64,000 nucleotides of DNA, from NCBI GenBank assembly GCA_003551665.1, contig PUNE01000100.1:1-64000 (forward strand). The letters run 5' to 3'. Made by a program: the position numbers and the translations under genes. The DNA is from Halobacteroidaceae bacterium. GTDB taxonomy: Bacteria > Bacillota > Halanaerobiia > B1SED10-174. How positions within the stretch are numbered: the stretch's first letter is position 1; each line of letters opens with the position of its first letter. Positions 42,261 through 61,411 of the stretch are shown here, piece by piece. Under the pieces are notes generated by a model, which was not told the origin of the DNA, did no database searches, and saw only the letters and a list, made by a program, of their open reading frames with translations.

Positions 42261-44120
42261 ATGAAAAAAACTATAATTTTCCTGCTGGGGCTTTTTTTGC
42301 TGCTTGCTGGCTGCGAACCATTTTTTGAGTTTGATGATTATGTAACAATAGAAGGCTGGGTTGTAACCTATCGGGAGGAAAACGAAGCCCCGGTAGAGGG
42401 AGCCTTTGCCAGGGCTATGGGTCGGGAGATAAGGACCGACAGCAAGGGCTACTTTGAACTGAGAAATGTTCCCGTTCCCCAGGACGGTTACCGGATTGAA
42501 GTTGAAATAAGGGCCAGGGGTTATGCTACAAAGAAATTTTCTGTTTCGGCTTTCCAGAGGGGAATAATCAACCTGGACCGGATTTACATTGAACTGATAT
42601 ACGAAGATATGGCTCGGGCCAGTGGAGAGGTCCGGGTTGGAGCAGTAGAAGGAACTTCTACCACCTCTGCTCTTAAAACCCAGGCAGTGGAAGAAGAATA
42701 CGTTCCCGGTCAGGTCCTGATTTCCCGGAGAGAAAAAACAACGGAATTAAATGTCCTGAGGGAAGTGCAGGGAAAAAATATTGAAGTTGTTGAGGTTCCG
42801 GAGGGCATGACTGTAGAAGAAGCAATCGTTTATTTCCAGGACCAGCCGGATATTATTGCGGTTGAACCCAACCATTACGTCTATGCCCAGTCTCTACCCA
42901 ATGATCCGGAGTTTAAAAACCAGTGGAATTTAAAAACCATCAATTATCCCGGGGCCTGGTTCGAGGTCTGGGAAAATGACTGGAATAAAATCAGGATTGC
43001 CGCCCAGGACGTCTGGATTGGAGTACTGGATACGGGGATTACTGAACACGAGGACCTGGATTTTCAGGGCAATATCCTCTTTCACCGGGGCGAAAACCTG
43101 CTTGATCCTGGAAAAGGGATTGAGCCCTATGATTATACGAGTGAGAATGAGAGAAGTCACGGCACCCACGTGACAGGGATAATGGCGGCTATGACCAATA
43201 ATAGGCTGGGGATTGCGGCCGCAGCCCCCGGAGTGAGAATCGTCCCCTGGCGGGTCCTGGATCGCAGCAGTGGGCCCATTGACGTCTTGGTTGAGGGGAT
43301 TTATGCGGCTGTGGATGAAGGTGTTGACATAATAAACATGAGCCTTGGAACTTCCAGGTATAATGAGTTTCTCCATGAAGCCATCCAGGATGCTTATGAT
43401 GCAGGAATCCTGCTGGTGGCTGCTGCAGGAAACACTGGGACGGATAGGATCCTTTACCCTGCTGCATTTGAAGAGGTGATTGCAGTTGGAGCAATGGACC
43501 CCGACCGCAGGCGGGCAGAATATTCAAATTACGGACCTGAACTGGAACTGATGGCTCCTGGAACCGATGTAATCAGTCTTTTTGGTTATCATGAAGGCTC
43601 AAGGAAAGATTCTTACGGTGCCATGAGCGGAACCTCCATGGCTGCCCCCCATGTCAGCGCCCTTGCTGCGCTGATTATGGCAGAGGAGCCTGCCCTGGAC
43701 CTGGAACAGGTTCGCTTCCGCATGCGAGAAACCGCGGGGAACTTTTATTTTCCCAACGAATACGTTGGGTACGGGGCAATAGATGTTTTCCGGGCCCTGG
43801 CCCCTGACCTGCCTCCCATCAGGGTTTTCGCTGGGGTGGAGTCAGATGGGAAGATCATCCTCAAGAGCGAGATTACCGAGGTTACCGGAGGAACCTATAC
43901 CCTGTACAGGGTTGAACCGGGAAACCGCCGTATTTACGCCTGGATAGATGCAAAGGGGACTGGCAAGATTGATGAAGGAGACTATTTTGCCCGCAGCTCC
44001 ACTTATTCATTTTCCGAGGGCAGGGAAACAAGTATTGAAACTCTAAACCTCCTCCACAGATGGGAAGATTACTTCTCAACCCTTGGAGTTAAAAGCCTGG
44101 AAATTGTGGAGGAAGAATAG
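42261..44120 (+). CDS. Lipoprotein subtilase with N-terminal regulatory-like domain
   Basis: A 619-residue S8 serine protease. The lipobox LLAGC puts Cys18 at the mature N-terminus. Residues about 30-115 form a carboxypeptidase-regulatory-like domain (EGWVVTYREENEAPVEGAF, TDSKGYFELRNV). A propeptide-like inhibitor/I9-type segment follows (about 148-210, VPGQVLISRREKTTEL to IIAVEPN). The catalytic domain has Asp257 (VLDTGI), His300 (SHGTHVTG), Asn in VAAAGNTG and Ser459 (GTSMAAPHV), so it should be active. The C-terminal 100 residues are a beta domain. It follows the Mrp operon by 17 bases and ends in a shared bidirectional terminator. As a lipoprotein it acts in the periplasm or on the surface. 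Confidence 0.88.
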   Translation: MKKTIIFLLGLFLLLAGCEPFFEFDDYVTIEGWVVTYREENEAPVEGAFARAMGREIRTDSKGYFELRNVPVPQDGYRIEVEIRARGYATKKFSVSAFQRGIINLDRIYIELIYEDMARASGEVRVGAVEGTSTTSALKTQAVEEEYVPGQVLISRREKTTELNVLREVQGKNIEVVEVPEGMTVEEAIVYFQDQPDIIAVEPNHYVYAQSLPNDPEFKNQWNLKTINYPGAWFEVWENDWNKIRIAAQDVWIGVLDTGITEHEDLDFQGNILFHRGENLLDPGKGIEPYDYTSENERSHGTHVTGIMAAMTNNRLGIAAAAPGVRIVPWRVLDRSSGPIDVLVEGIYAAVDEGVDIINMSLGTSRYNEFLHEAIQDAYDAGILLVAAAGNTGTDRILYPAAFEEVIAVGAMDPDRRRAEYSNYGPELELMAPGTDVISLFGYHEGSRKDSYGAMSGTSMAAPHVSALAALIMAEEPALDLEQVRFRMRETAGNFYFPNEYVGYGAIDVFRALAPDLPPIRVFAGVESDGKIILKSEITEVTGGTYTLYRVEPGNRRIYAWIDAKGTGKIDEGDYFARSSTYSFSEGRETSIETLNLLHRWEDYFSTLGVKSLEIVEEE

Positions 44121-46441: not shown

Positions 46442-48589
46442 GTGCCACGCATTTTATGGGCTGTTGGAATTATTATTTTGATATTCAGCTTTTCTGCCCA
46501 GGCAGCGACACGGGTCAATATTTCCGCGGAGCGCCTTGATTATTATATTGAAGATGAACAGGCCGAAGCCCGCAGTAATGTTGTGGTCTCCTGGGAAGAC
46601 AACCGGCTGACCTGTGATGAACTTTTCATTGATTTTGGGGCAGGTTATCTGACTGCCCGGGGAAATGTCTACTTTGCCCAGGGGGATTCGGGCTTCAGCA
46701 GTGAGGAAATAACCTATTATTTTGAAGACGAAAAAGCGATAATCCTCACGGCCAGGGGAGAATTTGTAACCGAGGAAGTCGAGGGTTATGTTTACCTCCA
46801 CAGCAAGAGGATAGAAGGTGAAAGAGAACAGATTTTTTTTGACGATGCCCTGGTTTCAACCTGTGAATTTGATGAACCCCACTATTTTTTGCGGTCTTCA
46901 GAGGTTGAAGTCTTTCCGGGGGATAAACTTATTGCCAGGCACGTTTCTTTCTGGGAACTATCGGGGAGACTCCCGCTTTTTTACTGGCCTTACCTTTACA
47001 TTTCCCTCAAGGATAGGGAACAGCAGATAACTCCTGAGGTGGGATATTCAGCCAGGCGGGGCTTCTTTGTAAAATTTGGCTACAACTACTTCCTTGAAAA
47101 TTCTTATGGTCAGATCCTGACAGATGTTTTTTCCCGGACCGGTCTGGCCTTCGGGATCAGGCACACCTATCTTGACAGGGGGGATGACCTGGGCCGGGTT
47201 TATTTTTATATCCAGCAGGACAGGGCTGAATTAGGGCTGCCTCTCTGGGAAGGGGAGTGGGAGCACCGCCAGGAAACACCTTTTGATGGCGACTGGTCCA
47301 GCAGACTGGCTCTTACCAATTACCAGGGGGAGCGAATTGACCTGAGAAGCAGGTTGAGCTGGCAGGGAGGAGAAAATCCCTGGGGCCTTCGCCTGCAGTC
47401 CGACATTGACGGCACCTATTTTTACGGGGGAGAAGATGAGGTCTGGACTGCACTGGAGGCTTCTCTGGACGGACGGCTTGACTACCAGTTTGCACCAAGG
47501 CACAGGTTGCGCCTCGACGGTGAATATGACAGTGAGATTGTGGACGAGGAATTTGAAGACCGCTGGGCGGGCTCCCTCCATTACCGGGGAGGCGACCCGG
47601 GACTGGCATATGAAGTCCTATTTGAACGCAAGGTGCCAACCCTGGGAGGAAGTGGAGACCATTTCTATACCATTCCCGAGGTCAAGGTATCAACAAGGCC
47701 TGTTTACTGGGACGAATCCCCGCCTTCCTACCTGCGGCCTTTTACCTTTGAAGTAATGGGTGGATATTACGATGACCGTGAGGTTGACCTGCAGGCAGGC
47801 CGGGTGGGAGCAAGTATTGATTTCAACAGGTTTTACCGGCCTTTTACATGGGCCAACCTGCAGCTGACCCAGCGGGGGAGGCTATTCGGCTATACAACCC
47901 GGGACCTTTATGCAGAACTTTACAGCCGCAACCGCCTGACCCTTCGGCCACTAAACTGGTTGAGTTCCACCTGGACCTATACCTACCGCCAGCCTTTCGG
48001 GGAAAGCCCCTTTGGATTTGACTACAGGGGGTTGCAGGACAACCTGAGGGCAGACCTGAGATTAAGTCACGGTTCTTGGTCGGCAACTGTTAGTTCCGGG
48101 CGGGATTTTGTTGATGAAAGGTTCTACGATGTTACGGGGCAGATCCGCTACAGGACACCCAGCACCAATCTCCGGCTGGCAACTGGATACAGTATTGAAA
48201 ACCAGCGCTGGCGTGACGTTGTGGTCAGCGCAGGACTCGATTATGAACAGATAGAACTGGGCCTGGGTTACCGCTTTAATCCCAGTCCTTTTGAACACAA
48301 AAAGGTGGAGGGTCAAATAGCCTGGCAGGCCACTGATGATATAAAACTGGAAGGGATCATTTCCTTTGACATAGCCAAGAGTGAACTGGACAGGGGAGCT
48401 CTTCGGGTGGCCTGGGATTTTCACTGCCGGCAGCTGGTCTTTTCCTACGACCATGTGCGGACAGAATTCCTGGTTCAGTACCAGATCCTGGCCTTCCCGG
48501 GGCAGAGGGTTCAGGTCATAAGCACCCCGGAAGAACCCATGTTATTTGATCTGGATTTGGGGGACCTTTTTGATGACTTTATGGAATAA
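46442..48589 (+). CDS. lptD: LPS-assembly protein LptD
   Basis: A 715-residue outer-membrane protein. A signal peptide (cut near AQAA) is followed by an OstA/LptA-like jellyroll (VNISAERLDYYIEDEQAEARSN...) and a C-terminal barrel of LptD type with many alternating strands and aromatic girdles. LptD forms the outer-membrane pore that places LPS on the surface. It is shorter than E. coli LptD (784). A CxxxxC pair for disulfides as in E. coli is not obvious, and lptE is not seen. GTG 46442 follows AGGAGGAAT. It overlaps lptC by 17 bases. Confidence 0.88.
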   Translation: MPRILWAVGIIILIFSFSAQAATRVNISAERLDYYIEDEQAEARSNVVVSWEDNRLTCDELFIDFGAGYLTARGNVYFAQGDSGFSSEEITYYFEDEKAIILTARGEFVTEEVEGYVYLHSKRIEGEREQIFFDDALVSTCEFDEPHYFLRSSEVEVFPGDKLIARHVSFWELSGRLPLFYWPYLYISLKDREQQITPEVGYSARRGFFVKFGYNYFLENSYGQILTDVFSRTGLAFGIRHTYLDRGDDLGRVYFYIQQDRAELGLPLWEGEWEHRQETPFDGDWSSRLALTNYQGERIDLRSRLSWQGGENPWGLRLQSDIDGTYFYGGEDEVWTALEASLDGRLDYQFAPRHRLRLDGEYDSEIVDEEFEDRWAGSLHYRGGDPGLAYEVLFERKVPTLGGSGDHFYTIPEVKVSTRPVYWDESPPSYLRPFTFEVMGGYYDDREVDLQAGRVGASIDFNRFYRPFTWANLQLTQRGRLFGYTTRDLYAELYSRNRLTLRPLNWLSSTWTYTYRQPFGESPFGFDYRGLQDNLRADLRLSHGSWSATVSSGRDFVDERFYDVTGQIRYRTPSTNLRLATGYSIENQRWRDVVVSAGLDYEQIELGLGYRFNPSPFEHKKVEGQIAWQATDDIKLEGIISFDIAKSELDRGALRVAWDFHCRQLVFSYDHVRTEFLVQYQILAFPGQRVQVISTPEEPMLFDLDLGDLFDDFME

Positions 48590-49155: not shown

Positions 49156-49806
49156 ATGCAGAGGAAAGCTATTTGTTTTTTTCTATTACTATTACTCCTT
49201 TTGGGGAGCAGCACCGGGGCGGAACGCCGGGTTTTCATTTCAGCTGAAACAACCCGTTACCTCAAAGACAATATAATCAGGTTTGAGAATGGAGTAGAAA
49301 TCCGTTACGAAGATATGGTAGTAACGGCTATCACCGGGGAGTATTACGAGGACGAAGAAGAGCTCCTGTTAAAAGAGGACGTGGAAGCCACCCAGGAAAA
49401 AAATCGCATCAGGAGTCCCGAGATGTGGATGGACCTGGAAGAGGAACATATCATCTTCCGGGGGGGCAGAGTTGAATCCCTTTTCTATTTCCAGCAGGAG
49501 GAGGAAGGGGAGGAAGAGATGCCAGTAGAAATGTGGTCTGACACTCTGGAAATCTGGCAGCAACGGCGAGAAATGCTGGCCAAGGGAGAAGTTAAAGCCT
49601 ATTACGATGATATGGACATGGAGGCAGATGAAGTTTTAATTGAAGAAGAAAAAGACCTCCTAACTGCAACGGGAAATGTTTATGTTTTGCGGGATGATGG
49701 TTCCTGGTTCCGGGCGGAAAAAGTTGAATATAACCTGGAGGACGGTACTTTTGTTGCCTACAAGATGGAAAGTGAATTTGAATTACAGGAAAGAGAGAGC
49801 CCTTAG
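49156..49806 (+). CDS. lptA: LPS transport periplasmic protein LptA (OstA-like)
   Basis: A 216-residue exported protein. After a signal peptide (cut near STGAE) comes an OstA-like jellyroll made of repeated short strands. Features are VFISAETTRYLKDNIIRFENG, then DEEELLLKEDVEATQEKNRI and ADEVLIEEEKDLLTATGNVYV. LptA oligomers form the bridge that carries LPS across the periplasm. It starts two bases after lptC. The terminator stem overlaps its last codons. Confidence 0.85.
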   Translation: MQRKAICFFLLLLLLLGSSTGAERRVFISAETTRYLKDNIIRFENGVEIRYEDMVVTAITGEYYEDEEELLLKEDVEATQEKNRIRSPEMWMDLEEEHIIFRGGRVESLFYFQQEEEGEEEMPVEMWSDTLEIWQQRREMLAKGEVKAYYDDMDMEADEVLIEEEKDLLTATGNVYVLRDDGSWFRAEKVEYNLEDGTFVAYKMESEFELQERESP

Positions 49807-49824: not shown

Positions 49825-50065
49825 AATAATAACAGGAGGAAGCTTTACTGGAATAAATAAGTTAATTGTTAAACAAAAAAATGGTGAAAAAACTTTTGCA
49901 AAGCAATTCCTGGAAACACCCCCCCGGAAAGAAAACTCAGGAAAAACAGCATAAAAAGGATAGATTTAAGGGCCATAGAATAACATATTAGCCCTGAAAA
50001 AGGAAAAGGAGGTGGCTCTGTCCAGATTTTAGGGCTTATATATTTCTTAGAGGAGGAGGTTGAAA

Positions 50066-51532
50066 ATGAGGAAACTTTTAGCACTGGCCTTAGTTTTACT
50101 TATTGTATTTGCCCTAACCGGATGTGATATCTTTTTTGATACCCGGCCCAAGGGAACTATTGCTGGTTATGTGACTGACGGAAGAGGAGGCCCTGGTATA
50201 GAAGGGGCAACAGTCAAGGGCCTGGGTTTTGATACCACAACTGATGAAGAAGGTTATTTTGAAATGGAAGTGTGGGCAAATTATACTTTTGACCTGGTAA
50301 TTGAAAAAGAAGATAGAGGCCAAACACGTGTTCAGGATGTTATTGTAGAAAAAGGGGAGTTTTTGGAATATGAGCTTCCCAACCGGAAAAACTTTAATCC
50401 GGAATGGCCTGATGCTGCCCCAAAGATTGAAGTGGAAGGAGTTTCCCGGGGAGAAGAAGTATCCGGGGATCTGGAAATTGAATTTGAGGTTGAGGGGGAC
50501 AGGCCAACCTATGTTTATTATTTAAATTTTGGTGGCCTGCAAAGAGGTCCAAGGGAAGCCTTTGATATTGATGTTGATGAAGGGTCTGCAGTGATTGATA
50601 CTACCAAGCATCCCAATGGAGATAGTTATATCAGGATTTTGGCTTATGACGACAACGAAAATGCAGTAATGAAGTTTATACCTGTTGTTGTAGATAATGA
50701 GGTCGGAGATGGAGATCCTCCAGGAGACCTTGCCTGGCTTGACCTATATTCAATGACAATGGGCAGAAACGTAGGATATTTTTCCGACCAGCTTGAGATC
50801 CTTGTTGAAGAATATGGAAAGGACCTGGATCCAGACTATTACGAAACTCCCGAGGGACATATGATAGACCTTACCCAAATTCCCGATGACAGCACCCTTT
50901 TTATTGAAGTAATGTGGTCCCGGATTCCTGAAGCTGATGGATATTCTGTATACAGGAGCTTTGACGGAGAAACCTTTGAACATATTGGAAATATTACCCA
51001 GTACACTGATGTGAGTGAAGAAGACCAAGATCCCATTATTGTTGGGTTGTATAATGATTTCAGCCCTCAGCTGGGAATTAAAGAAACTTACTACAAAGTT
51101 GTTCCTTACAATGCCTTTGGAGAAGGCGAACCTCTTGTAAGGGCCATTACTCCTCTTGCGCCCTACAATGTTGTTCTGGAAACGCCTGAACATGAAGCGA
51201 CAGACGTTGAGTTAATGCCAACCTTTACCTGGGACCTGGATATAAAAGGAGAATTTGAAGAAGACCGGGATATTATTGAGTTACATCTGATTAGGCTTTT
51301 TGATGCAACGGATTGGATCGTTGTTGAGGATGTGGTTCAAGATGAAAGGGAATATTCACTGCCCTTTGAACTCGATCCCAACACCGTGTATAGCTGGGAT
51401 ATTGCTATAAGTCAAGCCTACCACACAGAGGGTGATGCAGAAGGGTATTCACAGGCCTTAAGCATTTCGGGCCATATAGGTCAACCAGGTTCGATTATTG
51501 GCGAATTTATGTTTACAACGGTAACAGAATAA
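50066..51532 (+). CDS. Lipoprotein with one regulatory-like domain and FN3-like C-terminal module
   Basis: A 488-residue lipoprotein with the lipobox ALTGC near residue 20. One carboxypeptidase-regulatory-like domain (about 29-110; TIAGYVTDGRGGPGIEGATV, TTTDEEGYFEM) is followed by a module of about 370 residues. That module starts FNPEWPDAAPKIEVEGVS and includes fibronectin-III-like parts (VMWSRIPEADGYSVYRSFDG, ETYYKVVPYNAFGEGEP, PTFTWDLD). The whole C-terminal module is shared with the lipoprotein at 55152. Predicted to bind rather than cleave. It is followed by a subtilase after 21 bases, forming a two-gene unit. ATG 50066 has AGGAGGAGGT upstream. Confidence 0.8.
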   Translation: MRKLLALALVLLIVFALTGCDIFFDTRPKGTIAGYVTDGRGGPGIEGATVKGLGFDTTTDEEGYFEMEVWANYTFDLVIEKEDRGQTRVQDVIVEKGEFLEYELPNRKNFNPEWPDAAPKIEVEGVSRGEEVSGDLEIEFEVEGDRPTYVYYLNFGGLQRGPREAFDIDVDEGSAVIDTTKHPNGDSYIRILAYDDNENAVMKFIPVVVDNEVGDGDPPGDLAWLDLYSMTMGRNVGYFSDQLEILVEEYGKDLDPDYYETPEGHMIDLTQIPDDSTLFIEVMWSRIPEADGYSVYRSFDGETFEHIGNITQYTDVSEEDQDPIIVGLYNDFSPQLGIKETYYKVVPYNAFGEGEPLVRAITPLAPYNVVLETPEHEATDVELMPTFTWDLDIKGEFEEDRDIIELHLIRLFDATDWIVVEDVVQDEREYSLPFELDPNTVYSWDIAISQAYHTEGDAEGYSQALSISGHIGQPGSIIGEFMFTTVTE

Positions 51533-51553: not shown

Positions 51554-53113
51554 TTGGCAAAATATATAAAATTGGTCTTTGTTTTAACAGTTGTGCTTGC
51601 TCTCGCAGGCTGTAATACCCTGTTTTCAGAGCACGAGGTTCCTGCTGGAGAAAAAGAAACTCCGGAGTTTACCGAGTTCAAGGAAATATTTGCTTACGAC
51701 GAACTTTTAAACGATGCTGACCAGAATAGTATCCTTGTGAAGACCAAGGACATGGGTAATCTGGAAACGGTTCTTGCTGACCTGGGAAGCACCCTGATTA
51801 ACAGGTGGGATGCCATTGACTGGGCCAAGGTAAGTGTGCCTCCCGGAAAGGATCTTCCCCAGTTCCTGGAAATAATTCAGAAGGAAGAAGAAATAATATT
51901 GGCTCAGCCCAACCTCCAGTATGAGCTGCCTTTCTATGAAAAGATGTCAGAAAGAGATGTTCTGGATTTTGAAGAACGGATTCTTGAAGCTCCGGACATC
52001 GGTGCAGATGATTTTGAAGATGAACTCTGGGGAATGAAGAATATAAATGCTGAAGAAGCCTGGGAAATTACAACAGGAAATGACCATGTAGTAGTTGCCA
52101 TTGTCGATACCGGGGTTAATATGGATCATCCAGAATTTGAAAACAACGAGTTTGTTGCACCCTTTAATGCGACAGGGGATGCTTACCCCTCGGCTCTGGA
52201 TATTCAGGGGCATGGAACCCATGTAGCAGGAACAGCAGTTGCAGATGGAAGGACTGGAAAAATTGCCGGGGTCTCATGGGACAACCCCATAATGCCCATA
52301 AGGGTTATGGATATTGAGGGTTTGATTTATTCAGCCTACACAATTGAAGGTATTTTCCATATTATCGATTACATGCAGGAAAACGATGTAAGGGTCGTAG
52401 CTAACTATAGTATTGGCGGCCGGGGTTATGATGCTGCGATGAAGGATGCCCTTGATTATGGTATGGAAGAGGGAATGATCTGGGTAACCTCAGCTGGCAA
52501 TGACGGGAAAAGAGTTCCCAACCTTCCCGCTACCTATAACGGCCTGATCAGTGTCGCTGCCTCAACGCCCTGGGATGAAAAGGCGGAATTTTCCACCACT
52601 GGCTTCTGGAATTCTGTTGCTGCCCCAGGAGTCCACATCTGGTCAACGCATCTGGGAGAAGACTATGTTCATATGCAGGGGACCTCGATGGCCTCACCCC
52701 ACGTCACGGGAGCAGTTGCCCTTCTCCTTTCCGAAAACCCCGATCTAACAGCTGTTGAAGTTTTAAACCAGGTTGAACAAACCGCTCGGGGTGATGGTTT
52801 TACTGAAGAACTTGGTTATGGAATTCTTGATGTTCCTGCTCTACTTGGGGAACTGGCACCAGTAAATTATGGTTCTCTTGAAGTAACAACCAATGCTCCT
52901 GGTGCAAGGATGACCATTTTTGATGCAGATGGAAATATGGCTGGCTTTGCTGCAATTGGCCTTGAATTGGTTAGGACAATTCATGCCCTTGATCAGGGTG
53001 ATTATACAGTAAGCCTCACCAATTGGGATCCTGATACTGAAGAATGGGAAACCATCCAGGAAGAAGTAACCATAGCTGCTGAAGATGTCGTTGAAGTGGA
53101 AATGGAATTCTAA
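51554..53113 (+). CDS. Lipoprotein subtilase (unit 1)
   Basis: A 519-residue S8 serine protease with the lipobox ALAGC near residue 20. Residues about 55-130 form a propeptide/inhibitor-like domain. The catalytic domain has Asp185 (IVDTGV), His220 (GHGTHVAG), Asn in TSAGNDG and Ser378 (GTSMASPHV), so the triad is complete. The last 75 residues form a small beta domain like PEGA (GSLEVTTNAPGARMTIFDADG). It resembles the subtilase at 57813 along its whole length, suggesting duplication. TTG 51554 follows AAAGGAGTG. It is transcribed with the preceding lipoprotein and closed by a 12-pair terminator. Confidence 0.9.
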   Translation: MAKYIKLVFVLTVVLALAGCNTLFSEHEVPAGEKETPEFTEFKEIFAYDELLNDADQNSILVKTKDMGNLETVLADLGSTLINRWDAIDWAKVSVPPGKDLPQFLEIIQKEEEIILAQPNLQYELPFYEKMSERDVLDFEERILEAPDIGADDFEDELWGMKNINAEEAWEITTGNDHVVVAIVDTGVNMDHPEFENNEFVAPFNATGDAYPSALDIQGHGTHVAGTAVADGRTGKIAGVSWDNPIMPIRVMDIEGLIYSAYTIEGIFHIIDYMQENDVRVVANYSIGGRGYDAAMKDALDYGMEEGMIWVTSAGNDGKRVPNLPATYNGLISVAASTPWDEKAEFSTTGFWNSVAAPGVHIWSTHLGEDYVHMQGTSMASPHVTGAVALLLSENPDLTAVEVLNQVEQTARGDGFTEELGYGILDVPALLGELAPVNYGSLEVTTNAPGARMTIFDADGNMAGFAAIGLELVRTIHALDQGDYTVSLTNWDPDTEEWETIQEEVTIAAEDVVEVEMEF

Positions 53114-53146: not shown

Positions 53147-53180
53147 GAGGCTGCCGGGAGAACCCGGCAGCCTCTTTTTC
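53147..53180 (+). terminator. Strong terminator after subtilase unit 1
   Basis: Perfect 12-pair stem GAGGCTGCCGGG (53147-53158) and CCCGGCAGCCTC (53163-53174), AGAA loop, then TTTTTCC. Confidence 0.92.
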
Positions 53181-53368
53181 CTTTTCGTTTTACTAAAGAA
53201 AATGATTTTGGTTAATAAGTAATTAGAGAACCTGGTTTTTTGTTCTGAGGAAAGCAGGGTAAGGTTGTACCCATTCTTATTTTGTTGAATTCTTTCTGAA
53301 GGTTTTTCCAAACCCATAAAGAATATTAGTATATTATCCAGTAATTTAGCCCGGGAGGAGTGATTTCC

Positions 53369-54604
53369 ATGGAACGCCCATTCAAGCAGTCCAAGTTTGT
53401 AACCTTTGACCTCTTACTGGTGTTAGTTTTACTCATTGTAGGAGGGGCGGTTCTCATTCCATGGGGTTTTGCCGACCGGGACGATCCTGAAGATAAAATT
53501 GAAATTTATCACCCCAAAAGGATCCTGGTTGAATTTCAAACCGAAAGAAAGCCAGAGGATATTATTAAAGCCTGGGGAGGAAGTATCGAAACTGCCTGGC
53601 CCGATATTGACCTTTACCTGGTCCGGATGCCAGTTGGAATAGCCACCTCCCAGGCCCTGGAATCACTTCTGGCTATGGGAGGTATCCGGGAGGTTGAACC
53701 TGATTTTCTGGGAGCCTCTGCTCCTACACCTTCCCCTGCCCGTACCGGGGGACGGTGGGGGCTGGAAAAAATCAGGGCAGCTGAGGCCTGGGAAGTTACC
53801 CGGGGTACTTCTGATGTGGTCATAGCTGTCATGGATACCGGCCTTGATACCCAGCATCCCAAAATTATTAACAGGGTTCTCGAGGGGTTTTCTCCATTGG
53901 TTGACGAGGAAGAGGTTCCCATTCCCTATCATGATGATCACGGCCGGGGAACACATATCGCTGCCATTTCGGCAGCCGGAGACATTGAGAGAATGAGAGG
54001 AGTTGCGCCTGAAGCCAGTTTGGTGGGAATAAAAACCCACGATGGTGAAGCCCGCCACTACAGGGCAGATTTAATTGGGGGTCTGGTCTGGCTGGGCAAG
54101 TGGGCCAAGGCAAACCCTGATAAAAGAGTAATCGCCCTCATGGATGGAGGCTGGCGCTTCCAGAGCCCGTTTTTAGAGAGGGCAGTCAAATTTGCCCAGG
54201 ATGCGGGGATCCTCTTAATTGCCGGTAGTGGAGATATGGGTTCGGAAGAAAAGTTTTTCCCCGCTGCCTATCCAGGGGTCCTGACCGTTGCTGCTATTAA
54301 CCCCCAGGATCGGCTAACCGACTTTAGTAATTTTGGCCAGTGGGTTGACATTGCTGCCCCCGGCGAGGATATTTTTTCTGCAGTTACCGGGGGGGGTTAC
54401 GGGTACTGGGATGGAACCGCTGTTGCTGCAGCCTATGCTGCTGGGGTGGCGGCCCTCCTCTGGTCGGAAAAACCGGATCTATCCCCCCAGGAAATAAGTG
54501 ATATTATTAAGACAACCTCAAGAAGCGCAGCAGGATTGGAAGATAAAATAAGTGCGGGTATTCTCGATGCCCAGAGGGCAATGGAAAAGCTGAAGGAAAA
54601 TTAA
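53369..54604 (+). CDS. Membrane-anchored pseudo-subtilase
   Basis: A 411-residue protein with the fold of an S8 protease but without its catalytic residues. One N-terminal helix (about 12-33) has no lipobox. A propeptide-like region (about 48-115; RILVEFQTERKPEDI, IREVEPDFLG) is followed by the subtilase domain. Asp156 is kept (VMDTGL), but the catalytic His is Arg193 (GRGTHIAA instead of GHGTHVAG), the oxyanion Asn is Asp289 (AGSGDMG), and the catalytic Ser is Ala351 (DGTAVAAAYAAG). The frame is intact with no stops, so it is a maintained protein and not debris. It may bind substrates or regulate the active subtilases on either side. ATG 53369 has GGGAGGAG upstream. Confidence 0.85.
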   Translation: MERPFKQSKFVTFDLLLVLVLLIVGGAVLIPWGFADRDDPEDKIEIYHPKRILVEFQTERKPEDIIKAWGGSIETAWPDIDLYLVRMPVGIATSQALESLLAMGGIREVEPDFLGASAPTPSPARTGGRWGLEKIRAAEAWEVTRGTSDVVIAVMDTGLDTQHPKIINRVLEGFSPLVDEEEVPIPYHDDHGRGTHIAAISAAGDIERMRGVAPEASLVGIKTHDGEARHYRADLIGGLVWLGKWAKANPDKRVIALMDGGWRFQSPFLERAVKFAQDAGILLIAGSGDMGSEEKFFPAAYPGVLTVAAINPQDRLTDFSNFGQWVDIAAPGEDIFSAVTGGGYGYWDGTAVAAAYAAGVAALLWSEKPDLSPQEISDIIKTTSRSAAGLEDKISAGILDAQRAMEKLKEN

Positions 54605-55007: not shown

Positions 55008-55066
55008 AAATAACCTTCCCCTGTAAAGGGGAAAATTTTTATTTATGTAGAAGAATAAAAATAAAT
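55008..55066. promoter_or_regulatory. Shared upstream element, copy A
   Basis: Contains the inverted repeat TTCCCCT (55016-55022), GTAA, AGGGGAA (55027-55033), then an A/T-rich stretch and the tract AGAAGAATAAAAATAAAT. The same arrangement lies at 59501-59552 upstream of the BsuPI-domain gene. It precedes the lipoprotein-subtilase unit 2. TATACT at 55065-55070 could be a -10 box at its end. It may be an operator or a 5' leader. Confidence 0.5.
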
Positions 55067-55151
55067 ATACTTGCTGCGAGGGGGTGAGGGGAGAAGGGCA
55101 ATTTTTTTTGGCTGCGGATGGAAAAATATTACAAAAAAAGGAGGGCGAGTT

Positions 55152-57788
55152 ATGAGCAAGTGGCTTGGAATTGGGAGTCTTGTTCTGTTGCTTTTACTAA
55201 CAACTGGATGCGGCCTGTTGCAGGTAGAGCGTTCGCTTACCGGTGTGATTACAGATCAGGACATAGGGGTCCCTCTGGAAGGGGTTTCGGTTAATCTTGA
55301 TAATTATTCCACAACAACAGATGCCTCGGGAGCTTATTATTTCAAAAATCTTTCCAGAGGAGATTTTGTCGTCAGAGCAGTAAAATCCGGTTATGAAAAC
55401 AAAGAAAAAGAAATTGCGGTAACCGGGGAAGAGCTTTTAAACTTAACTATGGAAGCAACAAAAAAAGGCAGTGTTGCTGGAGTAGTAGTAGATGAGCATG
55501 ACGGAGAGTTTATTGAGAACGCAGTTGCATCTATTGGAACCAAGGAGACTTCAAGCGATGATCAGGGGGCATTCCTTTTAGAAGGGATACCCGTTGGTGA
55601 GAGAAGCTTGAAAATTCATGTTAATGGTTTTGCTTCTCAAACCAAAACCGTACTGGTTAAAGAAGATGAGGAAGCCCAGGTTGAAGTTAAAATGGTTCCA
55701 ACTGAAGCAGGGGGAGTTCAGGGAATTATTACAGATCAAATAACAGGTGATCCTGTTGGGGGAGCAGAGATTACTATTGGAGAAGACAGTGCTTTAACTG
55801 CTGAAGATGGGAGTTACAAATTAACCGGAATTTTAAGCGGAGACTGGGATATTACCATTGAAAAGGTAGGTTATGGCGAAAAAGAAGAAGCAATTGTTCT
55901 TGAACCCGGAATAATTATTACCAAAGACCTTGCCATTTCTCCCAACATTGTTAGCGGGAAGGTCATCGACAGTTTCGGGCAGTATGCCCTGGAAGGTGTT
56001 ACGGTAAAAATTGAGGGAATAGCCACTGCAACAACTACAGCGGCAGGATACTTCCAGTTGCATCCCGTCCCACTCGGGGAACATATTATTGAAATTTCCA
56101 AAGAAAATTATTCTTCATTAATGGGAGCGTTTGAACTTCAGGAGCATACAATGAACCTGGGGGATATTCCGCTAACCTCTTCCAAAATGGGCGCAATAAC
56201 CGGGGAAATCCATGAGGGAGGCGAAGGGATTCCCAGTGTAAGGGTATACGTCTTTAATGATGGACAACTTAAGGGATTGGGGCAAAGCAACCAGGAAGGG
56301 GTTTACACAATTTATGACCTGTCCAAGGGTCCTTATGAAATAGTTATCAGCAAAAATGGTTATAAAGCTGCTGAAGGTTTTGAAAGTGTCCTGGTCATGG
56401 TGTCACCTGGTGAAATGAGGACTTACGACATTGAACTGGAGGAAATTGTTATTGAACATCCTCTTTCAGGTTATGTAACCGATACCAGAGGTGGGCCGCC
56501 GGTAGCTGAGGCCGATGTAAGTATTGTTGATGGAGAAACTGTTACCACCGATATTGCTGGATATTTTGAGTTTGGTTGGGAAGATATTCCCCTGGAACCT
56601 TTCGATTTAATCGTGGTTAAAGAAGGCCTGAGCGCAATAAAAGTGCAGGATATCCAGTTTGAAAATTCCCTTCACCTTGAAATACCCACTCGGAAGGTTT
56701 TCAATCCTGATTGGCCAATGGTAGCTCCTACAATAAATGTTGAGGGTGTTTCTGCTTTTGATGATGTATCAGGGGAGCTGGAAATTGATATTGCGATTAC
56801 GGGAGAAGAGTACCTGGCGCCTTTTGTTTTCTATGTTTATTTTGGCGGAATGCAGCGGATGCCAGTTGAAGGAGAAATTTTTATCGGGACTGACGAGGCC
56901 CAGGTTACGATAAATACGGAGAAACATCCTGATGGGCCAAGTTTTATCCGAATTCTGGCCTACGATGATAATCAGAACAGCACCCAGAAAATTATCCCGG
57001 TAAATGTAATTAATGACCAGATTGCAGATGCTCTTCCTGGAAATATCCCTGTTATGAATGCCTTCAGTGTTACAATGGGACAAACCTTCGGATGGTACTC
57101 TGACCAACGGGAAAAACTTTTTGCAGAAAGAAACCTAACTGGAGACCCCGGTGTTATCGAACTCCGCAATGGTGACATAATAGTCCTGAATGAGCTAGAT
57201 CCGGGAGCGACCCTCTATGCCCGGGTTGAATGGGCTCCTGCTCCAGGGGCAGATGGGTATGCGGTTTACAGGGGTGATAAACACCTGGGGAATATAGTCG
57301 GGAACAGGTATGACGATTTCAGCCTGAGCCATGATAATTTTGATAGTGAAGTTACTTACAGCGTTATTCCCTACAATGATTACGGTTATGGCAAAGCAAA
57401 ATCGAGGGTTGTTCCTGTTCTCAATCCCTTTAATGTGAACCTTTTAAGCCCTGCAAACGAGGCAACCGAAGTGGGGTTAAGTCCAACCTTTGAATGGGAT
57501 ATTACCGGGACCTTTCCCGAGGATACCGAACTCCTCTATAGTATCCACCTATTCGAGGCAACCTGGTGGAAAATCTGGGAAGTGGATGTAATTGATTTTA
57601 AATATATTGATTTTCCCGATGTTCTCGAACCCGGTCTTGTTTACAGCTGGGACATATTCTACGCAGATGCTTTTCTCATTGGAGAGTTGGAAAATACCGG
57701 TTTCTCATACGGACTTAGTATTGCCAGTGATGGGCTGGGTTCTTTAAATGGAGAATTCATTTTTACAACAACCACCGAGGTTCAATAA
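55152..57788 (+). CDS. Lipoprotein with six regulatory-like repeats and the shared C-terminal module
   Basis: An 878-residue lipoprotein with the lipobox LTTGC near residue 20. Six carboxypeptidase-regulatory-like domains of 75-85 residues run in tandem to about residue 510. Each has a G-x-V/I-x-D start (LTGVITDQDIGVPLEGVSV; VAGVVVDEHDG; VQGIITDQITGDPV; VSGKVIDSFGQ; ITGEIHEGGEG; LSGYVTDTRGG) and a turn like TTDASGAYYF. The last repeat and the rest of the chain (FNPDWPMVAPTINVEGVS, FIRILAYDDNQNS, ADGYAVYRGD) match the lipoprotein at 50066, which has only one repeat. ATG 55152 follows AAGGAGGGCG. It is followed by a subtilase after 24 bases. It probably forms a long surface or periplasmic stalk. 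Confidence 0.82.
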   Translation: MSKWLGIGSLVLLLLLTTGCGLLQVERSLTGVITDQDIGVPLEGVSVNLDNYSTTTDASGAYYFKNLSRGDFVVRAVKSGYENKEKEIAVTGEELLNLTMEATKKGSVAGVVVDEHDGEFIENAVASIGTKETSSDDQGAFLLEGIPVGERSLKIHVNGFASQTKTVLVKEDEEAQVEVKMVPTEAGGVQGIITDQITGDPVGGAEITIGEDSALTAEDGSYKLTGILSGDWDITIEKVGYGEKEEAIVLEPGIIITKDLAISPNIVSGKVIDSFGQYALEGVTVKIEGIATATTTAAGYFQLHPVPLGEHIIEISKENYSSLMGAFELQEHTMNLGDIPLTSSKMGAITGEIHEGGEGIPSVRVYVFNDGQLKGLGQSNQEGVYTIYDLSKGPYEIVISKNGYKAAEGFESVLVMVSPGEMRTYDIELEEIVIEHPLSGYVTDTRGGPPVAEADVSIVDGETVTTDIAGYFEFGWEDIPLEPFDLIVVKEGLSAIKVQDIQFENSLHLEIPTRKVFNPDWPMVAPTINVEGVSAFDDVSGELEIDIAITGEEYLAPFVFYVYFGGMQRMPVEGEIFIGTDEAQVTINTEKHPDGPSFIRILAYDDNQNSTQKIIPVNVINDQIADALPGNIPVMNAFSVTMGQTFGWYSDQREKLFAERNLTGDPGVIELRNGDIIVLNELDPGATLYARVEWAPAPGADGYAVYRGDKHLGNIVGNRYDDFSLSHDNFDSEVTYSVIPYNDYGYGKAKSRVVPVLNPFNVNLLSPANEATEVGLSPTFEWDITGTFPEDTELLYSIHLFEATWWKIWEVDVIDFKYIDFPDVLEPGLVYSWDIFYADAFLIGELENTGFSYGLSIASDGLGSLNGEFIFTTTTEVQ

Positions 57789-57812
57789 AACCTGAAGGAA
57801 GGAGTGAGATTA

Positions 57813-59357
57813 ATGAAAAGGGTTGTCCTTTTTTCAATACTGCTGGTTATTACCCTGTTACTTGCGGGTTGTTCGACACTGATGCCTTTTGATATTATTG
57901 AAAATGAACCGCCGGGAGTTCCTGCCCCGAAGCTTGGCGAGACATATTACCAGGATTTAACCTACCAGGAAGAATATCTTATGGTAAGACCTGAATCCCT
58001 GGATAAACTGGGTTCAATTCTGGCCGATATGGGGAGCGCTGAAGTGTATTCCTGGGAACAAATAGGCTGGGCAAAAATAACTGTGCCCGAGGATGAAACT
58101 GTCCTTTCATTTCTGGAAAAAATGATCGAGCGGGAAGATATTCTATTTTCTGAACCCGTCCTGGAATATGAACTGCCAGAATTTTCGGTGGAAGAGGATC
58201 CCAGGATTGGAGACCCTCCCCCTCCCCGAATACTGGAAGAAAATGACCAAATTGGAGCTGAATACTATCCATTGCTGTGGGGAATGCAGCAAATCAATGT
58301 GGAAGAAGCCTGGGATTTGACCACTGGACATGAGGATGTAATTGTTGCAATTGTTGATACAGGAGTGGAAACAGACCATCCGGAATTTGAAGGGATAAAC
58401 TTTGTGGGCCACTTTGATGCTACAACAGGTGGGACGGATGTTACTGATGAGCATGGGCACGGGACGCATGTTGCTGGCACAGCGGTTGCAAATGGAAGGG
58501 AAGGAAAAATAGCGGGAGTTGCCTGGGATACATCTGTAATGCCCATCAAGGTAATGGACGTTGAGGGTCTGATCTGGACAGACTACCTTATTTATGCCAT
58601 GCTGCACATGGGTGATTATGCAAAGGAACACGACAAATCAATAGTAGCAAATATGAGTATCGGTGGTCGAGGTTATAGTATTGCATTTAAAGATGCTATT
58701 GATTATGCTGCAGAAGAGGGAGTCCTCCTGGTTACCTCCGCTGGAAATGCCTACAAGCGAGTTTTAAGCTATCCCAGTGCATATAATGGGGTGCTTTCAG
58801 TTGCTGCGACAAATGCACGGGGAGAGAAAGCTGAGTTTTCCACCGAGGGCTGGTGGAATTCTGTCGCTGCTCCTGGAGAAAAAATTCTCTCCACCTATCC
58901 TGGTGGTGAATACGTCTTTATGCAGGGGACGTCAATGGCTTCGCCGCATGTTGCCGGAGCTGTTGGTCTGCTTCTAACCCATTTAGGCCCCATGGATACT
59001 GTGGAAATCATCAATCGAGTGCAGCAAACCGCTTATGGAGAAGAGTTTACCGAGGAATTCGGCTACGGGATTCTGGATGTTCATGCCCTGCTTACCGGCG
59101 AGGTTGAGCCGCGCTATGGCAAAATCTTGGTTGAGAGCGATGTTCAATACGGCCTGGTAACAGTGTTTGACGATGAGGAATATATGGTGCATTTTGGGGC
59201 AACTGGAATTGGAAAAACCCACATTTTCCATACCGTTGACCCGGGAGAATACGAAGTTACCCTTTCTTATAACTACCAGATCCGGGACAGGAAGATCGTT
59301 ACGGTAGCTGTGGGTGAAATCACTGAGGTAGAACTATTAGTCTATCCAGAGAATTAA
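57813..59357 (+). CDS. Lipoprotein subtilase (unit 2)
   Basis: A 514-residue S8 protease with the lipobox LLAGC near residue 20. A propeptide-like domain (about 50-125, with WAKITVPEDETVLSF) is followed by the catalytic domain: Asp182 (IVDTGV), His216 (HGHGTHVAG), Asn in TSAGNAY and Ser374 (GTSMASPHV). The triad is complete. A C-terminal beta domain (GKILVESDVQYGLVTVFDDEE) parallels the end of the unit 1 protease. It matches the protease at 51554 throughout, which together with the upstream lipoprotein marks a duplicated two-gene unit. ATG 57813 follows AAGGAGTGAG. Confidence 0.9.
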   Translation: MKRVVLFSILLVITLLLAGCSTLMPFDIIENEPPGVPAPKLGETYYQDLTYQEEYLMVRPESLDKLGSILADMGSAEVYSWEQIGWAKITVPEDETVLSFLEKMIEREDILFSEPVLEYELPEFSVEEDPRIGDPPPPRILEENDQIGAEYYPLLWGMQQINVEEAWDLTTGHEDVIVAIVDTGVETDHPEFEGINFVGHFDATTGGTDVTDEHGHGTHVAGTAVANGREGKIAGVAWDTSVMPIKVMDVEGLIWTDYLIYAMLHMGDYAKEHDKSIVANMSIGGRGYSIAFKDAIDYAAEEGVLLVTSAGNAYKRVLSYPSAYNGVLSVAATNARGEKAEFSTEGWWNSVAAPGEKILSTYPGGEYVFMQGTSMASPHVAGAVGLLLTHLGPMDTVEIINRVQQTAYGEEFTEEFGYGILDVHALLTGEVEPRYGKILVESDVQYGLVTVFDDEEYMVHFGATGIGKTHIFHTVDPGEYEVTLSYNYQIRDRKIVTVAVGEITEVELLVYPEN

Positions 59358-59584: not shown

Positions 59585-59607
59585 ATCCTTACTGGGAGGT
59601 GTTGCAA

Positions 59608-60366
59608 ATGGGCAAAAAGGTTTTAATGGGCCTGATTGTTATTGCCCTGGTAGTCGGATTATCCTCAAGTCTTCTGGCTGCTGATCTTTATCTAGATGGA
59701 AGAAGGATATCTCCTGAGGTTAAACCCCTGGAGATTGATGGCCGGATGTTCGTTCCACTGGAGGAAGTAACGGACTATTTTGATATTGACCTTAGGTGGA
59801 ATATTACGGGAAAACAGGTTCGCGGCCAGGTTGCAGGCAATAACTTTGTTATTGATAGACCAATAATTATCCACGGTTACCTGATGGTTTCCCTGGCTTT
59901 CCTAGAAGATTACGTTGACCTTTACACCAACTGGGATCAGAGGAGGGATATTATCGACATCGAAAGAAAAGAGATAACTCCCCCATCCAGAGAACCAGGG
60001 GGAGTTCGAGTTACCATTGATACCGACCGTTCCAGCTACAAATACGGAGATGCCATCGCAGTTTCCCTGGTAATATTCAATAAGTCTGACCGTTCGGTTG
60101 AACTGGAGTTCAGCACCGGGCAGACTCATGATCTGGTTATGAGGAGGGGAGGCCGGGTTGTATGGCAGTGGTCGCAGGATAAGGCTTTTACCCAGGCTTT
60201 CCAGACCAAGCGGATGGAGCCATATGAAATCTGGCAAAAAACTTTCCTGATTCCCACCAACCAGATCCGGACCTTTGTTACCGGCAACTATACCCTCGAA
60301 GGCAGGCTAACCACCCATAGAGAAGAGGTTAAAAGCGAGGAGTTAACCATCAGTATCAGTCGGTAA
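59608..60366 (+). CDS. Exported protein with copper-amine-oxidase-N-like and BsuPI-like domains
   Basis: A 252-residue exported protein; the signal peptide ends near LLAAD. Residues about 24-120 resemble the copper amine oxidase N-terminal domain (LYLDGRRISPEVKPLEIDGRMFVPLEEV), a common surface or wall module of Bacillota that does not itself bind copper. Residues about 130-250 match the BsuPI fold: YKYGDAIAVSLVIFNKS, STGQTHDLVMRRGGRVVW, WSQDKAFTQAF. BsuPI inhibits the Bacillus intracellular subtilisin, so a role as inhibitor of the neighbouring subtilases is plausible but unproven. Many BsuPI-domain proteins are annotated without tested activity. It has its own promoter and terminator. Confidence 0.8.
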   Translation: MGKKVLMGLIVIALVVGLSSSLLAADLYLDGRRISPEVKPLEIDGRMFVPLEEVTDYFDIDLRWNITGKQVRGQVAGNNFVIDRPIIIHGYLMVSLAFLEDYVDLYTNWDQRRDIIDIERKEITPPSREPGGVRVTIDTDRSSYKYGDAIAVSLVIFNKSDRSVELEFSTGQTHDLVMRRGGRVVWQWSQDKAFTQAFQTKRMEPYEIWQKTFLIPTNQIRTFVTGNYTLEGRLTTHREEVKSEELTISISR

Positions 60367-60556: not shown

Positions 60557-61411
60557 ATGCTTGTTAGCCGGGGTCAGCAGTCTACCCTGTTGAACAGGGT
60601 GAAAATAGAGGGCCGGGGGCTCCATACCGGGGCCCCGGTTGCAGTTACCGTAAACCCTGCCCCTCCTGATAGCGGTTTTGTTTTTTCCAGAACCGATCTT
60701 CCGGGAAAACCTTCCCTGAAAGCATGCCCGGAGCGAGTTTCAGAAACAAGCCGCTCCACGACGCTGGAAGATGCAAACTGCAGGATTGGGACAGTAGAAC
60801 ATTTTCTGGCAGCAGCAGCTGTGGCCGAACTGGACAACCTGTATATTGAAGTCCAGGGGCCCGAAATGCCCATCATGGACGGAAGTTCCCAGCCCATTTT
60901 CAGTGAACTGGAAAAAGGGGGAAGAAAAAAGCAGGAAGCACCCCGCCTCTGGCGCAAGATCGAGGAACCTGTATTTGTCCGGGAGGGCTTTGCTTCTCTC
61001 GTTGTCCTGCCTGAGGAAAGATTTCGGGTTACCTTTGTTTTCATAGGCCCTCCACCCATTGGGCACCAGGTTGTTGACAGGGAAAGGGACTGGGAAGAGC
61101 TTCTCCCTGCGCGGACCTTTGGCTGGCTGGAAGAAGCCCGGGAATTGAGAGAAAAGGGCCTGGCCAGGGGAGGTGGGGAGGATTGTGCCCTCATCTTCAG
61201 CAGCGGCGAGGCCGCTCCACCCTACAGGCTGCCAGACGAACCAGTTAGCCACAAGGTCCTCGACCTCCTGGGTGACCTGGCCCTGTACAGGCCCATCCTC
61301 GGGCATTTTATAGCAGTTCGCTCCGGGCACAGCCTGAACAATAAAATGGCAAGGAAATTGAAGGAAGGGGAGGCCGGGAGCAATGCAAGAAAAATGTTTG
61401 CGGATAATTAA
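60557..61411 (+). CDS. lpxC: UDP-3-O-acyl-N-acetylglucosamine deacetylase
   Basis: Zinc enzyme of lipid A synthesis, the committed step. The 284-residue protein has zinc ligands His82 (TVEHFLAA), His232 and Asp236 (SHKVLDLLGDL), and catalytic His258 (SGHSLNN). The N-terminal start TLLNRVKIEGRGLHTG is typical. First gene of the lpx operon; it overlaps the fabZ-like gene by 29 bases. A promoter is not clear: TTGACA at 60534 has no -10 box at proper distance. Confidence 0.95.
   Translation: MLVSRGQQSTLLNRVKIEGRGLHTGAPVAVTVNPAPPDSGFVFSRTDLPGKPSLKACPERVSETSRSTTLEDANCRIGTVEHFLAAAAVAELDNLYIEVQGPEMPIMDGSSQPIFSELEKGGRKKQEAPRLWRKIEEPVFVREGFASLVVLPEERFRVTFVFIGPPPIGHQVVDRERDWEELLPARTFGWLEEARELREKGLARGGGEDCALIFSSGEAAPPYRLPDEPVSHKVLDLLGDLALYRPILGHFIAVRSGHSLNNKMARKLKEGEAGSNARKMFADN

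Follow-up and report, generated by a model that had tools for sequence, protein, structure and literature searches.

We find that the lpt/lpx locus of a diderm, salt-lake member of the Halanaerobiia encodes a genuine pseudo-subtilase, and that selection maintains this protein in one genus. The gene lies in a 64,000-nucleotide stretch of a Halobacteroidaceae genome (assembly GCA_003551665.1, contig PUNE01000100.1; hereafter the window), where its frame (53369-54604, forward strand) runs uninterrupted through 411 codons and gives an intact protein of 411 residues. As judged from sequence, its most likely activity is binding to other proteins, not proteolysis: the catalytic machinery has been dismantled, yet the protein is kept under strong selection, and its gene sits among those that build and export LPS. 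Our best reading, which we regard as an even call, is that it is a non-catalytic, CspC-like periplasmic binding protein anchored in the inner membrane, with an envelope role and a BsuPI-domain protein as candidate partner. The gene and its parts are as follows.

53369-54604, + strand: pseudo-subtilase gene (411 aa), with an ATG start at 53369 and the RBS GGAGGAG immediately 5'; start and RBS are kept in five sequences
53369-53479, + strand: N-terminal tail and hydrophobic anchor, residues 1-37, with 2 of 37 positions variable in four orthologues and a predicted helix at 9-28
53507-53710, + strand: retained Fervidolysin-type prodomain, residues 47-114 (Pfam, 5.9e-06), modelled like unprocessed pro-subtilisins
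53750-54583, + strand: S8 catalytic-fold domain without catalytic residues, residues 128-405 (Pfam, AlphaFold2 model, structure matches)
53834-53836, + strand: Asp156, the sole catalytic residue kept (alignments)
53945-53947, + strand: Arg193, replacing the catalytic His (alignments)
54233-54235, + strand: Asp289, replacing the oxyanion Asn (alignments)
54419-54421, + strand: Ala351, replacing the catalytic Ser (alignments)

The initial annotation had described a complete S8 fold over 411 open codons, and both the uninterrupted frame and Pfam bear this out. Peptidase_S8 (PF00082) spans residues 148-387 (1.8e-35; 123.1 bits versus a cut-off of 21.8), and a Fervidolysin-type prodomain is matched at residues 47-112 (5.9e-06). 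Alignments place Asp156, Arg193, Asp289 and Ala351 exactly on the D/H/N/S positions of S8 peptidases, and not elsewhere in the fold. The Asp-His-Ser triad and oxyanion Asn of an active peptidase are thus missing from all four orthologues (D156 R193 D289 A351 in each), whereas D/H/N/S is present in 80/80 aligned S8 relatives. That only Asp156 survives had been noticed before; the changes extend further. Among 41 alignment columns shared by ≥85% of 80 other S8s, 28, which are structural, are kept in all four pseudo-subtilases, and 13 are changed, most of them catalytic or belonging to the substrate site. At position 258 the substrate-strand Ser is replaced by Met (Leu in genome G002), the S4-side glycines 228 and 230 have become Ala and His, Pro355 has become Ala, and the Gly199 position is lost too.

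Orthologues are found in three more MAGs of the genus, named Halobacteroidaceae or Bacillota, which brings the full-length copies to four (81-84% identical). D/R/D/A is common to all four, so no orthologue retains an intact His or Ser, and selection is not relaxed: pairwise dN/dS is about 0.05-0.075 among these four sequences of one genus. The least saturated pair (G004 and G002) gives 0.075 at a dS of 0.60; dS is near saturation in most other pairs, so their values are rough, but neutrality is still remote. LptD, LpxA and LptA, compared across these genomes, give a range that includes such values. The proposal of a maintained dead protease is therefore strongly supported, and a sequencing error or a decaying gene is ruled out by the identical D/R/D/A in orthologues, the dN/dS and the open frame. 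The gene was not found in a further genome, G001, but lpxC is missing there too and the contigs stop inside the locus.

Between the window and G003, 5% of positions differ in the boxes around the former active site and 28% elsewhere (p = 7e-7); no significant difference between groove and remainder was found in the active paralogues. The first 37 residues are nearly invariant in the pseudo-subtilase, but they are the most variable stretch of LptA, LptC and the BsuPI protein. Because they vary so little, both the dead groove and the N-terminal anchor look like working parts of the protein; folding constraint may account for part of the groove's conservation. Note that the pseudo-subtilase has no lipobox: residues 1-46 contain no Cys, whereas its neighbours carry ALAGC and LLAGC. 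The earlier contrast between a membrane anchor and lipoprotein neighbours holds to the extent that the lipobox is absent and residues 9-28 are a predicted helix. The anchor itself is a prediction, and the helix could instead be a cleavable signal peptide, cut after Ala35 (IPWGFA before Asp36).

An AlphaFold2 model built on an alignment of 84 sequences has a pLDDT of 91.3 and a pTM of 0.87; a model from 7 sequences (pLDDT 57.6) was not used, and the alignment was deepened to 84. Subtilisin structures match the model with a TM (target) of about 0.9. The best PDB matches, over prodomain and S8 domain together, are unautoprocessed pro-subtilisin E and pro-Tk-subtilisin forms including S324A (3whi, 2z2z, 3wiu). 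These structures show precursors of active enzymes that had been engineered or trapped, whereas the predicted locked form of the pseudo-subtilase would be natural and permanent. Self-cleavage requires residues that are lost here, so the prodomain is predicted to stay uncut, unless it is cut in trans, and to lie against the dead groove as in an unprocessed pro-subtilisin. Given that its best matches are unprocessed precursors, we read the pseudo-subtilase as a putative permanently locked zymogen. AlphaFold2 may, however, dock the prodomain by habit of the family.

To our knowledge, few bacterial pseudo-subtilases have a known role, and the Csp spore proteins are the best studied. Clostridioides difficile CspC keeps its Asp, has lost His and Ser, and retains an uncleaved prodomain (PMC6636752); for the pseudo-subtilase, an uncleaved prodomain packed on the S8 domain is a prediction of the model. 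CspC and CspA share the subtilisin fold and a degenerate triad, and act by binding and signalling (PMC6636752), which makes CspC the probable closest functional analogue. Csp proteins are soluble spore proteins with a jelly-roll insertion of ~130 aa (PMC6636752), whereas the pseudo-subtilase has a hydrophobic N-terminal anchor, an S8 domain of normal length without that insertion, and a place in an LPS locus. It does not belong to the CspC family (18 bits versus the 675-bit cut-off of NF040808), nor is it a type VII secretion mycosin (161 bits versus the TIGR03921 equivalog cut-off of 278.75).

On our reading, the pseudo-subtilase would be exported, its N-terminal helix would anchor it, probably to the inner membrane, and its S8 domain would lie in the periplasm. 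It would act by binding, with the remodelled, conserved groove and prodomain face and the conserved anchor contacting partners, as CspC does in germination. Given that the gene is surrounded by lpt/lpx genes and has a BsuPI-domain gene next to it, the protein most likely serves the envelope, be it in LPS export or in control of envelope proteolysis. A bolder version, which we consider unlikely, is that a naturally locked pro-subtilisin serves diderm Firmicutes as a non-catalytic inner-membrane subunit, acting as a sensor or scaffold in LPS export or envelope proteolysis by CspC-like logic and with a BsuPI-domain ligand; if true, a pseudoprotease would add a layer of control over the outer membrane. 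In any case, this is a clean example of a protease without catalytic and substrate-site residues whose scaffold, prodomain and groove are nonetheless under strong selection, in the LPS locus of a diderm Firmicute. If the protein binds Lpt or BsuPI proteins, it would offer a route to envelope control in these bacteria and to what subtilase prodomains and grooves may do without cutting.

The surroundings of the gene were compared across the genus. The relevant features of the window are these.

49156-49806, + strand: LptA-like gene, immediately 5' of the pseudo-subtilase in G004, G002 and contig G000:C47
51554-53113, + strand: active-type lipoprotein subtilase (DHNS), an inconstant neighbour
53147-53174, + strand: strong terminator-like hairpin (12-bp stem, T tract) after the 51554 gene, 5' of the pseudo-subtilase
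53290-53368, + strand: conserved upstream block, promoter-like with RBS, kept in five sequences despite a differing upstream neighbour
55016-55033, + strand: terminator-like hairpin 3' of the pseudo-subtilase (sequence)
57804-59357, + strand: active-type lipoprotein subtilase (DHNS), an inconstant neighbour
59599-60366, + strand: secreted protein with Cu_amine_oxidN1 and BsuPI (subtilisin-inhibitor-like) domains; in G004 its gene directly follows the pseudo-subtilase
60557-61411, + strand: lpxC, first of the lipid A synthesis genes

The window and G003 (the latter joined from several contigs with the window as template) share the order lptF/G, lptD, lptC, lptA, CarbReg lipoprotein, active subtilase, pseudo-subtilase, CarbReg, active subtilase, BsuPI, lpxC, fabZ and lpxA. 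In G004 the order is lptA, pseudo-subtilase, BsuPI and lpxC, with no active subtilase alongside. G002 has lptA, pseudo-subtilase, CarbReg, an assembly gap, BsuPI and lpxC, and contig G000:C47, from another strain or species in its bin, passes from lptA directly into the start of the pseudo-subtilase; both lack the 51554 gene at the locus. Active subtilase neighbours are therefore not constant. What is constant, where both sides are seen, is that the pseudo-subtilase follows lptA, with or without an inserted module between them, and precedes the BsuPI gene and lpxC. Two distant contigs (G001:C246 and G000:C69) have lptA followed by CarbReg, C69 continuing into an active-type subtilase, and then end. 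Contigs with lptD or lptA in bin G000 (C47, C69, C85, C92 and C115) come from other species of the genus, at about 80% and 60% identity, so that assembly is a mixture.

Of 55 BsuPI-domain genes in the class, 19 have an S8 gene no more than 3 kb away; independent placement is roughly estimated at about 0.5% per gene. The only S8 gene that adjoins the BsuPI gene in G004 is the pseudo-subtilase, and the locus there keeps just these two. Such recurrent linkage, with a dead S8 as the only G004 neighbour, hints that the BsuPI-domain protein is the first candidate ligand. Bacillus subtilis IPI (BsuPI) was reported to inhibit the subtilisin Isp1, with its status as a true inhibitor debated (PMC3901451). 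That pair likewise joins a subtilisin-type protein to a BsuPI-domain protein; Isp1 is active and cytosolic, whereas the BsuPI protein here has a signal peptide and in G004 adjoins only a dead S8. Terminator- and promoter-like sites lie between the two genes in G004, so they need not form one unit.

The constant slot between lptA and lpxC also suits a subunit that assists LPS export or the control of lipid A, and whose anchor and N-terminal tail would contact LptF, LptC, LptA or an LpxC regulator. The unusually invariant anchor and a dN/dS like that of LptD and LpxA fit such a subunit. The pseudo-subtilase is, however, confined to one genus, whereas lpt/lpx genes are class-wide; it has separate terminators; and subtilase genes are common around the locus across the class. 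We rate this role as possible but improbable.

The initial annotation had tentatively suggested a different role, as a substrate receptor, inhibitor or folding partner for the neighbouring lipoprotein subtilases; on that view the protein would be a dedicated decoy, folding partner or inhibitor of the enzymes at 51554 and 57804. The flanking by active subtilases on which it drew is real in the window and in G003, and these enzymes belong to the same broad S8 clade. Contig C71 of G004 carries other CarbReg-subtilase genes, so a potential trans partner exists there. Against this, G004 has no active subtilase alongside, and the 51554 gene is absent from the locus in G002 and G000:C47. The hairpins and upstream block indicate that the pseudo-subtilase has its own transcription unit, set off from the neighbouring active subtilases. 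It is also an old, separate lineage: an S8 tree of 73 rows places the four pseudo-subtilases together on a single long branch (1.53 changes per site), to which a wider clade of active subtilases including 51554 and 57804 is sister (support 98/90). A topology that unites the pseudo-subtilases in a single clade with active members of their own family was rejected (AU p = 0.008), and with it a recent duplication of a neighbouring subtilase; long-branch effects are possible. The 51554/57804-type enzymes of Halanaerobiia, which are paired with CarboxypepD_reg lipoproteins, resemble the pseudo-subtilase as its sister clade, but have DHNS, a lipobox and a longer linker. A dedicated partnership is thus weakened, and we now think it a poor prospect, although the protein may yet pair in trans with other subtilases.

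It is very improbable that a different catalytic activity was kept or gained through Asp156, Arg193 and Asp289 or neighbouring residues. The residues at the old active site do not vary and their pocket is strongly conserved, but position 351 offers no nucleophile. The D156-R193-D289 set is more simply taken as a putative salt-bridge network, which would account for a joint change of His to Arg and of Asn to Asp, and we know of no S8 enzyme with a set of this type. Least credible of all is a neutral relic that lost catalysis and is retained as nothing more than a harmless, folded protein. By itself, losing catalytic residues is frequent among protease families, as the non-peptidase homologues in MEROPS illustrate, but the dN/dS of 0.05-0.075, the frame open in four genomes, the conserved upstream block and a groove conserved beyond the rest of the protein all speak against it.

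The lpt/lpx cluster was described by Antunes et al. 2016, in whose text we found no occurrence of 'subtilisin' (PMC5007114), and our paper searches found no literature on pseudo-subtilases in LPS loci. The same study reported no clear LptD homologue in Halanaerobiales (PMC5007114); the window encodes a 715-aa LptD-like (OstA) protein (46442-48586) with a weak match to the NCBI model (1.8e-6). A lipoprotein subtilase of another S8 clade (window 42261-44120; also L047-L053, L059 and L075) lies beside or near lptF/G in many Halanaerobiia families, sometimes divergently. CarboxypepD_reg lipoproteins (window 50060-51532 and 55149-57788) are recurrently paired with a lipoprotein subtilase just 3', likewise in G005, G018 and G041. 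Other genera have an ABC ATPase and a membrane protein of ~775-830 aa adjoining lpxC (L046:7786-10858; also L047-L055, L059 and L061), and none of the five genomes of the pseudo-subtilase genus matched the 775-aa protein of G005. Among the S8 loci fetched and aligned from the class and from a 399-genome sample of the phylum, only one other deviant was found (L104; G153:C3:38182-39006), with DHDT, that is, an oxyanion Asp and Thr for Ser. L104, an independent candidate pseudo-subtilase, belongs to the same clade and lies in one long open frame whose upstream part resembles CarbReg lipoproteins.
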